A DNA stretch of 64,000 nucleotides from Herbiconiux flava (lineage in GTDB: Bacteria; Actinomycetota; Actinomycetes; Actinomycetales; Microbacteriaceae). The stretch spans positions 2,976,001 to 3,040,000 of the forward strand of contig NZ_JACCBM010000001.1 in the NCBI RefSeq assembly GCF_013409865.1, written 5' to 3'. The notes under the pieces were generated by a model. That model searched no databases and was not told the DNA's origin. It saw only the letters and a list, made by a program, of their open reading frames with translations. Made by a program: the position numbers and the translations under genes. How positions within the stretch are numbered: the first letter of the stretch is position 1; each line of letters begins with the position of its first letter. Positions 37,279-39,226 of this stretch are shown here, piece by piece.

Positions 37279-37938
37279 ATGCGACTCCTCCTGATCAGAC
37301 ACGGCCAGACCATCGACAACGTCAAGGGCGAGATCGGCACGGTCGTGCCCGGCCCCGGGCTCACCGAGCTCGGCCGGCAGCAGGCCGCCGCCGTGCCCGC
37401 CGCCCTCGTGTCCGAGTCGATCGACGCGATCGCGGTCTCGACCATGCGCCGCACCCAGGAGACCGCCGCCCCGCTCGCCGCGGCCCTCGGCCTCGACCCC
37501 GTGGTGCTCGAGGGCCTCCAGGAGATCTCCGCCGGCGACCTCGAGGGCCGGGGCGACCGCGAGTCCGTCACCACGTACATGCGCACGCTGCTGTCGTGGT
37601 GGACCGACATCGACGCGCGGATCCCCGGCGGCGAGAACGGCGCCGAGTTCGTCGAACGCTACTCAGCGGCGATCGCCGAGCTGTGGGCCGCGCATCCGGA
37701 GGGCACCGTCGCGGTGGTCAGCCACGGCGCGGCCATCCGCACCTGGGCGGCCTGGTTCTCGCAGAACATCGACGAGTCGACGACCCTCGCGCTCGAGCTG
37801 CACAACACCGCGGTGGTGGTGCTGGAGGGCTCCCCCGAGGGCGGCTGGGTGTGCGTCGAATGGGCGGGCGAACCGCTCGGCGGCGCGGCGCTCGACGACC
37901 CCACGGCCCCCGACCCCACGGGCGAAGCGAGTTTCTAG
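37279..37938 (+). CDS. Histidine phosphatase (phosphoglycerate-mutase-like) family protein
   Basis: A 219-aa protein. LLIRHGQTIDNVKG is the catalytic R-H-G motif, STMRRTQETAAPLA, LQEISAGDLEGRG and VVSHGAAIRTWAAW supply the second Arg and the second His. It hydrolyses a phosphomonoester through a phospho-His intermediate. The substrate is unknown. The true start is the ATG at 37279 because upstream in-frame codons lie within DUF72 and the duplication. Confidence 0.87.
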   Translation: MRLLLIRHGQTIDNVKGEIGTVVPGPGLTELGRQQAAAVPAALVSESIDAIAVSTMRRTQETAAPLAAALGLDPVVLEGLQEISAGDLEGRGDRESVTTYMRTLLSWWTDIDARIPGGENGAEFVERYSAAIAELWAAHPEGTVAVVSHGAAIRTWAAWFSQNIDESTTLALELHNTAVVVLEGSPEGGWVCVEWAGEPLGGAALDDPTAPDPTGEASF

Positions 37939-37987
37939 CTGAATCCACCCTCTGGCTGAATCCACGCACTGGCTGAATCCACGCACT
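37937..37987. repeat. Three 17-bp tandem units after the phosphatase stop
   Basis: AGCTGAATCCACCCTCT (37937-37953), GGCTGAATCCACGCACT (37954-37970) and the same again (37971-37987). The first unit overlaps the last two bases of the TAG stop. The array ends 36 bp before the 3' end of ssrA. Confidence 0.85.
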
Positions 37988-38000
37988 GGCGGATGAGGGG

Positions 38001-38020
38001 CAACAGCGTACGACAACGGC
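38001..38020. repeat. Left arm of a perfect inverted repeat flanking ssrA
   Basis: CAACAGCGTACGACAACGGC. Its exact reverse complement is at 38429-38448. The arm ends 2 bp from the encoded CCA end of the tmRNA. Confidence 0.9.
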
Positions 38021-38022
38021 GC

Positions 38023-38421
38023 TGGTGGAGATGGGGGGAATTGAACCCCCGTCCACTACTGTGATTCCGCGCCTTCTACGGGCGTAGCCTGTGCAGGCGT
38101 TCTGCTCGGCCCCGACCTTTGCCACAGGCATCCAGGTCGACGGGCCCAGTCACAGTGCAAGTCCCACGTGACCCTGAGACACAGTCACGCAGCAATCTCT
38201 CTAGATAATGCCGGAACCCGGGTAGAGAGCATTCCCGGACCGACAGTTGCTATTTAGCTAGGAAGGAAGACCTAGGCCGCGAGGGCGAAGGTGGCCTTCT
38301 TGGCCGCAACAGTGCTGTTTGAATTGGCACTTATGTTTTGCGGAGGGCGTTAACGAGATAACCCCGCATCCTCGGCCCGCTTCTCGCAGTTTCGCAGGCA
38401 GTGTCGAAACCGATCATCCCC
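38023..38421 (-). ncRNA. ssrA: tmRNA (SsrA), one-piece
   Basis: About 399 nt on the minus strand. The 5' end GGGGATGATCGGTTTCGACA and the 3' end ...CATCTCCACCA form a 7-bp acceptor stem (one G-U), and the T arm GGGGGTTCAATTCCCCC is intact, with CCA encoded. The tag reading frame runs from GCC at 38328 to TAG at 38272 and encodes ANSNSTVAAKKATFALAA, ending in the expected ALAA degradation signal. It rescues stalled ribosomes with SmpB, encoded 2 kb away. A perfect 20-bp inverted repeat flanks the gene and could extend the acceptor stem of the precursor. Confidence 0.96.
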
Positions 38422-38428
38422 GCGATGG

Positions 38429-38448
38429 GCCGTTGTCGTACGCTGTTG
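38429..38448. repeat. Right arm of a perfect inverted repeat flanking ssrA
   Basis: GCCGTTGTCGTACGCTGTTG, the exact reverse complement of 38001-38020. It lies 7 bp upstream of the tmRNA 5' end and downstream of the likely promoter, so it would be transcribed. Confidence 0.9.
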
Positions 38449-38489
38449 AGTTTCCAAATGCACCGGATGCTCATCCGCTGCAGCCCTCT

Positions 38490-38495
38490 AGTATA
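38490..38495 (-). promoter_or_regulatory. Probable -10 box TATACT of ssrA
   Basis: TATACT on the minus strand would start transcription near 38483, about 60 nt before the mature tmRNA 5' end. No good -35 is visible. The resulting leader would include the right arm of the inverted repeat. Confidence 0.45.
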
Positions 38496-38533
38496 CGTCA
38501 GCGGCGGCTCGGTGCGCCACCAGGGTCATGGGC

Positions 38534-38539
38534 TAGCGT
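38534..38539 (+). promoter_or_regulatory. -10 box TAGCGT of the SIMPL gene
   Basis: TAGCGT ends 6 nt before the ATG at 38546, divergent from the ssrA promoter. Confidence 0.5.
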
Positions 38540-38545
38540 GAAGGC

Positions 38546-39226
38546 ATGCCAGAGACCATCATCACCGTCGCCGGCACCGGCCGGCTGCGCCGCACCCCCG
38601 AACGCGCGAAGGTGCGCATCGGCATCGGCTTCGAGGGGTCCAAGCGCGACAGCGTGCTCGCCGCCACCCGCGCCGCCCACGAATCCGTGACGGGCTCACT
38701 CGTCACCCTGCTGCACCCCGACGGCGGCCCCGTCATCGACTGGGCCTCCGAGGACATCCGCGTCTGGGGCCAGCGCCCCTACAGCCCCGACGGCTCGCGC
38801 CTGCCGGTCGAGTTCCACAGCGCCGTGTTCGTCGACGCCGAGTTCGGCGACTTCGAGGCGCTCTCCGAGTGGATCGACGTGGTCTCGGCCGGCGACGGCA
38901 TCGCGGTCGACGGCATCGAGTGGCGCCTCGCCCCCGACACCGAGGCCGTGCTGCAGCGCGAGGTGCGCCAGGCGGCGATCCAGGATGCCCTGACCAAGGC
39001 CCGCGAGTACGCCGACGCCCTGGGGCTCGGCACGGTCACGGCGCTCTCGCTGAGCGACCCGGGGCTGCTCGACGACTCCGGATCGGGCTCGCCGGGCGGT
39101 CAGCCACGGATGCTCGCCATGGCCAAGTCCTCGGGCGGCGGCGGCATCGAGCTGCGGCCGAACGCGATCGTGATCGAAGCCTCGGTGCACGCGCGCTTCA
39201 GCGCCGCTCCCCCGGCCGCCCGATGA
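38546..39226 (+). CDS. SIMPL-domain (DUF541) protein
   Basis: A 226-aa protein of the SIMPL/DUF541 family: ITVAGTGRLRRTPERAKVRIGIGFEG opens the domain, and AAIQDALTKAREYADALGLGTVTALSLSDPG is the conserved helix-strand unit. No signal peptide is visible, unlike many homologues, so it is probably cytosolic here. The function of the family is poorly known. The next gene overlaps its stop by ATGA. Confidence 0.8.
   Translation: MPETIITVAGTGRLRRTPERAKVRIGIGFEGSKRDSVLAATRAAHESVTGSLVTLLHPDGGPVIDWASEDIRVWGQRPYSPDGSRLPVEFHSAVFVDAEFGDFEALSEWIDVVSAGDGIAVDGIEWRLAPDTEAVLQREVRQAAIQDALTKAREYADALGLGTVTALSLSDPGLLDDSGSGSPGGQPRMLAMAKSSGGGGIELRPNAIVIEASVHARFSAAPPAAR

Follow-up and report, generated by a model that had tools for sequence, protein, structure and literature searches.

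Layout of the ssrA locus

The tmRNA gene (ssrA) of Herbiconiux flava is bracketed by a perfect inverted repeat, which raises the question of whether the two arms are joined in the tmRNA precursor and, if so, what kind of structure they form. The window analyzed here is a stretch of 64,000 nucleotides (assembly GCF_013409865.1, contig NZ_JACCBM010000001.1, positions 2,976,001 to 3,040,000), and all coordinates given below are positions in this window. The features of the locus are listed in the direction of transcription, with the basis of each in brackets.

38490..38495, minus strand: putative −10 element TATACT, followed by AGAGGGCTGC, the putative start region (sequence; block conserved in the genus; presumed promoter)
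38459..38482, minus strand: leader hairpin just upstream of the motif, in a boxB-like position (predicted in the precursor fold)
38441..38458, minus strand: rrn/tmRNA leader motif TTTGGAAACTCAACAGCG, boxA/boxC-like (genome pattern search)
38429..38448, minus strand: 5′ (leader) strand of the leader–trailer helix (sequence, repeat finder, covariation, fold, tree)
38422..38428, minus strand: 7-nt spacer CCATCGC up to the mature 5′ end (sequence, ARAGORN, Rfam RF00023)
38422/38421, minus strand: expected RNase P site (presumed from the mature 5′ end)
38023..38421, minus strand: tmRNA (ssrA) with the 18-residue tag ANSNSTVAAKKATFALAA and an encoded CCA (ARAGORN and Rfam RF00023)
38021..38022, minus strand: 2-nt 3′ spacer (sequence)
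38001..38020, minus strand: 3′ (trailer) strand of the leader–trailer helix (sequence, repeat finder, covariation, fold, tree)

A transcript of the locus would thus run from TATACT through AGAGGGCTGC, the hairpin, TTTGGAAACTCAACAGCG, the remainder of the 5′ arm (down to 38429), and the 7-nt spacer into the tmRNA with its encoded CCA, and from there through the 2-nt spacer into the 3′ arm. The arm at 38001-38020 reads CAACAGCGTACGACAACGGC and is the reverse complement of 38429-38448. Both the sequence itself and a repeat finder gave arms of 20 nt that are 100% complementary and have 408 nt between them, in line with the exact repeat first described. The positions assigned to its surroundings were also recovered: according to ARAGORN and Rfam RF00023, the encoded CCA and the 3′ arm are 2 nt apart and there are 7 nt between the 5′ arm and the start of the mature tmRNA, and TATACT is found in the sequence at 38495-38490. 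When the genome (3.85 Mb, 98.94% complete) was searched for the arm 20-mer with up to three mismatches, only two places were found, both at ssrA; the control pattern, read backwards, matched once.

Just past the 3′ arm, at 37935-37993, a unit of the CTGGCTGAATCCACGCA type occurs three times in direct orientation with a period of 17 bp; these repeats lie between ssrA and a convergent ORF that, from its translation, we take to be phosphoglycerate-mutase-like. The tag ANSNSTVAAKKATFALAA, encoded at 38272-38328 within ssrA, has 18 residues, and its length is constant across the 16 genus genomes. Eighteen residues were also counted in Subtercola lobariae (L034) and in G022, 17 in G036, 16 in Gryllotalpicola, and 12 in most other Microbacteriaceae loci examined.

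Pairing of the arms and covariation across the genus

Pairing between flanks was evaluated by a fixed scoring of flank pairs against shuffled sequences. The helix between the tmRNA flanks scored 52, a value reached by none of 500 shuffles (mean 20.3, maximum 36), which bears out the original view that a 20-mer in this position is unlikely to arise by chance. In the same genome, the flanks of the SRP RNA and of the RNase P RNA remained at the shuffle level, with 240 or 360 of 500 shuffles as good for the former, depending on the strand tested, and 143 of 500 for the latter. Folding of the tmRNA precursor, suggested beforehand as a check, gave a minimum-energy structure that contains the whole 20-bp helix. 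In a long-window RNAduplex test, which GC-rich flanks confound, the H. flava locus was equaled by 1 of 107 foreign downstream flanks. Foreign-flank controls (32-34 per locus) also scored high when the flanks carried the same motif, and some of the helices counted as real were equaled by at least one of their 32-34 controls; for the H. flava locus, this was 1 of 34.

Sixty genomes, including that of H. flava, were searched, and tmRNA was found in all of them; G048, whose match lay at a contig end, was left out. Kinship among the genomes was taken from their labels, and the family name Microbacteriaceae from the named loci whose smpB was nearest. The tmRNA flanks of the 16 genus genomes among the 60 were extracted, and the arms were compared in 21 ungapped columns. 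The arms paired in all 16 genomes, which hold 14 distinct arm pairs. Cognate arms formed 19.2 pairs on average versus 17.4 for non-cognate arms, a comparison that favors the cognates somewhat because the register of the 3′ arm was set to maximize cognate pairing, and when the 3′ arms were permuted 10,000 times, the observed pairing total was never equaled.

No broken pair was found in columns 8-18 in the genus. Seven columns of this stretch (10, 11, 12, 13, 15, 16, and 17) were variable, and each of them had changed on both strands. On the tmRNA tree, each of 14 changes in the 5′ strand of these columns has its counterpart in the 3′ strand, and neither strand has an unmatched change; the event counts are approximate, being drawn from a tree of mature tmRNAs of ~400 nt, and the two-sided pattern is independent of the tree. 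Some broken cells occurred in columns 1-5, 7, and 19-21. In the outer columns 1-7, four changes were inferred for the 5′ strand versus 22 for the 3′ strand, which thus drifts opposite a nearly fixed partner; the latter is held constant by its second role as a sequence motif. The compensatory changes on which the original prediction relied are therefore present in the variable columns of the stretch 8-18, as 14 matched events and no one-sided event; change in one arm alone, which had been named as evidence against the helix, does take place in columns 1-7 and is absent from those seven columns. The compensatory changes in the 16 genomes, and the helices of other genera described below, are what was expected of precursor flanks that pair and enclose both cleavage sites. 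As judged from these alignments, the inverted repeat is a conserved leader–trailer RNA helix of the tmRNA precursor and is under selection.

A leader motif common to the tmRNA, 16S, and 23S precursors

The second half of the motif TTTGGAAACTCAACAGCG is the outer half of the 5′ arm. The element inside the 5′ helix strand, in the position of boxC, is CAACAGCG, which is also present in the pre-16S and pre-23S strands. The 18-nt pattern TTTGANAACTNMACAGYG, searched for with at most one mismatch, was found in both pre-23S leaders (no mismatch), in both pre-16S leaders (one mismatch), in the tmRNA leader (one mismatch), and nowhere else in the genome. Allowing two mismatches gave six places, of which the sixth (two mismatches) was taken as coding by appearance only, and the reversed pattern had no match in the genome. 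The shorter block GNAACTCAACAGCGTRC, with up to two mismatches, matched the tmRNA leader exactly, both 16S leaders with one mismatch, and a coding-looking place, also with one mismatch, and its reversed control matched twice within two mismatches; this block alone is thus less specific.

The 16S copies of the motif stop ~183 nt short of the gene. Each of the two operons has a pre-16S leader–trailer helix whose leader strand contains the motif; 27 of its 30 columns are paired (none of 60 shuffles was as good), and CAACAGCGTGCA pairs with TGCACGCTGTTG in the spacer. The pre-23S helix, again in both operons, has 34 of 37 columns paired (none of 100 shuffles was as good), with CGCCCGTACTTTGAGAACTACACAGTGGACGCGAGCA as its leader strand and the 3′ flank of 23S as the partner strand. 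Since the motif is located in the leader strands of the tmRNA, 16S, and 23S helices, three stable RNA precursors have a leader motif in common, at an equivalent place in the structure. Sequence comparison thus establishes the pairing of the arms and the motif held in common with the rRNA leaders, and the identity of the motif in the 5′ arm with that of the pre-16S and pre-23S leader strands is, as read from these matches, newly recognized.

The Gram-positive boxA is close to CTTTGAnAACT. The tmRNA leader of H. flava has TTTGG at the boxA core, the CUUUGA-type core is degenerate in some relatives, and AACTnMACA is better kept in the tmRNA motif than the upstream TTTGA. The boxA label is applied to the tmRNA motif as a hypothesis.

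Start region and leader hairpin

A TAnnnT-nGArGGCTG block upstream of the arm was present in 16 of 16 genus members, and its conservation would speak against a transcription start between the arm and the gene. A scan with the sigma-70 consensus gave no site at the ssrA promoter region. Between the start region and AACTC, a hairpin was predicted in the minimum-energy fold of all 16 genus leaders; these hairpins are individually weak (z −0.4 to −2.7), and those of L024 and L027 extend into the TTG/TTC block of the motif. The −10-like element of ssrA and the start codon of a divergent ORF (38546-39226) are ~50 bp apart; from its translation, this ORF is presumably of the DUF541/SIMPL-like family, and the two genes may use one short divergent promoter region (38490-38546).

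Distribution of the helix and of the motif

The helix exceeded all 100 shuffles in 16 of 16 genus genomes, in 13 of 21 Microbacteriaceae of other genera (8 fell short), in 35 of 50 named loci (15 fell short, some by 1 of 100 only), and in 1 of 21 genomes of the order from other families. As 20 of these last 21 fell short, tmRNA can in general be matured without the helix. Three loci (L008, L029, and L127) were narrowly short, with the helix on the motif; L126 (1.4 Mb genome) has a helix away from the motif; and no helix was found in the shuffle-scored flanks of L016 (2.8 Mb), L031 (0.9 Mb), L131 (1.4 Mb), and L133 (1.5 Mb). By score, the helix was weak or missing at L064 (Gryllotalpicola), L091 (Rhodoluna), L106, L107 and L108 (both Streptomyces), and some Microbacterium loci (L075, L078, and L079), where the 3′ end is misplaced by several nucleotides and pairing may be masked. 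Throughout, the ends given by ARAGORN were adjusted to GGGG and CCA and are possibly off by a few nucleotides. Thirty of 80 named loci, whose tmRNA was absent or beyond the fetched stretch, and L147 were set aside, as ARAGORN gave no tmRNA for them, and the flank-pairing survey was made without L172 and L176.

The helices of relatives are mostly 11 to ~23 bp long and reach up to 32 columns with mismatches; several Microbacterium helices have only 11-12 bp. Across the family, the 5′ spacer, measured between the arm and the mature 5′ end, ranges in length between 4 and >50 nt, and the 3′ spacer is mostly 0-6 nt. The ssrA leader of Subtercola lobariae (L034) has a 5′ spacer of ~54 nt.

The motif was scored by its matches among the 12 specified positions of TTGRNAACTNMACA, with a threshold of at least 9. 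Upstream of tmRNA, 20 of 21 genomes at the order level reached this threshold; among 23 Microbacteriaceae loci, which take in the genus members L009 and L011, 21 did so. The corresponding share of shuffles was 6.7-7.7%. Downstream flanks, used as a control, gave no match at this threshold in the order and Microbacteriaceae sets and 6 among all 134 loci. A class sample had the motif at the same threshold in 25 of 38 genes (shuffles 5.3%). This sample came from 60 genomes, of which 5 had no match at the threshold of the genome search and 4 of the remaining 55 had already been examined; 13 of the 51 genes, whose 5′ end was not located by the pattern, were left out. In 16 of the 21 order genomes, the best match lies upstream of the mature 5′ end at a distance of 0-2 nt. 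The exact pattern occurred in 64 of 296 class genomes and its reversed control in 0 of 296; in at least one of the 64 (G377), the pattern is not at a tmRNA, locus L176 being without one.

The motif is more widely spread than the helix and precedes tmRNA in many actinobacteria that have no helix. The simplest history would be that the leader motif beside the tmRNA is ancestral and that a stalk came in between the two afterward; such a stalk seems to be found mainly in Microbacteriaceae. Four loci from genomes of 0.9-1.5 Mb (L126, L131, L133, and L031) are without a motif-based helix, yet have the motif at 9-11 of 12 positions, no more than 19 nt from the 5′ end of the tmRNA.

Proposed maturation of the tmRNA precursor

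Transcription would start ~35 nt upstream of the 5′ arm, at the place indicated by the conserved −10-like block, and both arms would be transcribed. The leader would carry the small predicted hairpin and then the boxA/boxC-like motif, whose second half would be the first helix strand. Once it has emerged, the trailer would pair with the leader, a step backed by covariation, and the precursor would be closed. RNase III, whose gene is present in the genome, would most likely cut the helix, as happens in pre-rRNA; the short tails left over would be trimmed by RNase P at the 5′ end and by exonucleases at the 3′ end. The sequence-constrained motif is probably bound by a trans-acting factor, for which the Nus/antitermination complex would be the leading candidate, as in rrn leaders. 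Taken as a whole, we consider it probable that the locus encodes an rRNA-type leader and a leader–trailer processing stalk of pre-tmRNA that is probably cut by RNase III.

Helices of 11-12 bp are short for efficient RNase III cleavage, and the involvement of this enzyme is therefore less certain at the Microbacterium loci concerned. In Streptomyces venezuelae, ssrA was upregulated in an rnc mutant, yet it was not identified in RNase III induction experiments (PMC12096830). As the two Streptomyces loci of our survey are without the stalk, this result neither helps nor refutes the proposal.

A broader reading, which we put forward tentatively and hold to be possible but somewhat doubtful, would place actinobacterial tmRNA on the rRNA production line. 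A boxB-boxA-boxC-like signal would load the Nus complex, shield the untranslated transcript from Rho, and hold the leader strand until the trailer arrives; the helix of Microbacteriaceae would be cut by RNase III like those of pre-16S and pre-23S; and rescue capacity would be tied to ribosome synthesis.

Alternative explanations

GC-rich flanks make short matches frequent, and tmRNA genes are described in passages of PMC11915505 as common integration sites of genomic islands. A mobile-element trace, either terminal inverted repeats or an attachment site, was among the roles considered in the original prediction. Each arm is single-copy in the genome, however, the arms covary in 16 genomes at a conserved position, and the repeats are inverted, not direct; we consider this origin very improbable, and a terminal inverted repeat was rejected because it does not recur in the genome and covaries at a fixed position. 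A chance palindrome or an intrinsic terminator has, in our estimation, a negligible probability. The former was rejected because none of the 500 shuffles reached the helix score and pairing was found in 16 of 16 genus members, and the arms span the whole gene; the latter was rejected because 408 nt lie between the arms and no T-run follows the 3′ arm. No terminator-like site was found on the minus strand between 37850 and 38600.

Alternatively, the helix might be a stability clamp or end protector that guards the precursor, or some of the mature tmRNA, from exonucleases and misfolding. It would then be no substrate of RNase III, and RNase P would generate the ends together with another 3′ endonuclease. 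The helices of only 11-12 bp in several Microbacterium loci are consistent with this, as is the range of the 5′ spacer, so that the geometry relative to RNase P is not fixed. We nevertheless regard a clamp as unlikely, given that the same motif and architecture occur in the pre-16S and pre-23S helices and that, in passages of PMC3848588, such flanks are cut in P. acnes, likely by RNase III. The motif, for its part, could be a promoter or start-site element or an RNase P determinant, and its likeness to rrn leaders could come from common promoter-proximal constraints. In many other actinobacteria it does abut the mature 5′ end, at the RNase P site, and several such motifs closely follow a −10-like hexamer. 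However, it is conserved in the stalk-bearing Microbacteriaceae though it lies ~20-70 nt from the RNase P site there, and its displacement from the gene by the stalk argues that it does not serve RNase P. It also stands ~183 nt before 16S in the H. flava genome, and the 16S 5′ end is not made by RNase P. The chances of this explanation are, in our view, low. An rRNA-type processing stalk is the reading that we retain, and it can be compared with several known systems.

Comparison with known systems

In Bacillus subtilis, the flanks of a small stable RNA, the scRNA, pair in a long helix that is cut by RNase III. The tmRNA locus is similar in the paired flanks of a small stable RNA and differs in the RNA and in the phylum concerned; we know of no motif common to the B. 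subtilis scRNA and rrn. The maturation of tmRNA elsewhere involves RNase P, RNase E, and 3′ exonucleases, according to titles in the reference list of PMC5522395. As in the processing that those titles describe, tRNA-like ends would be made here from a longer precursor, whereas neither a leader–trailer helix nor a boxA-like leader is named in these titles and the accompanying passages. Among the literature matches listed, no boxA-like leader or leader–trailer helix was described on a tmRNA; papers naming both "tmRNA" and "boxA" could mention one.

BoxA has also been found outside rRNA, in the 5′ UTR of E. coli suhB, in passages of a study that did not consider non-coding RNAs (PMC5725501), and in the leaders of CRISPR arrays, an untranslated RNA, according to citing text in PMC7862264. 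The tmRNA locus resembles these cases in that a transcript other than rRNA carries a boxA-like element in its leader, and it departs from them in its leader–trailer helix, a structure not described in those passages. The actinobacterial tmRNA motif also departs from the gamma-proteobacterial boxA consensus GYTCTTTAANA.

The closest parallel is offered by rRNA operons, from which boxA/boxC leader–trailer helices are known. Passages of PMC10250234 place boxC in the 5′ strand of the E. coli helix, with boxA before it. Among actinobacteria, staggered cuts, likely made by RNase III, are described in the complementary 16S and 23S flanks of P. acnes (in passages of PMC3848588), a putative boxA in mycobacterial rrn leaders (in passages of PMC10218544), and boxA, B, and C in the leader and spacer of M. 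tuberculosis (in passages of PMC5676007). As in the rRNA helices of E. coli and actinobacteria, complementary arms surround a stable RNA in H. flava and a conserved element lies in the 5′ strand; the tmRNA leader likewise has a hairpin and a boxA-like block just upstream, and it has the same core motif as the rrn leaders of its own genome. Unlike the rRNA helices, that of tmRNA encloses a single RNA of 399 nt, next to tRNA-type ends that RNase P would make, and it has 20 bp as compared with 27 (16S) and 34 (23S) paired columns; the roles of RNase III and of Nus factors at tmRNA are those that we infer. The arrangement is that of an rRNA-type leader–trailer helix on a tmRNA, a kind known from rRNA operons. 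The shared leader motif and helix suggest that the ribosome-rescue RNA is matured much like ribosomal RNA; if this is true, the RNA that rescues stalled ribosomes would have transcription and maturation signals in common with the ribosome itself.
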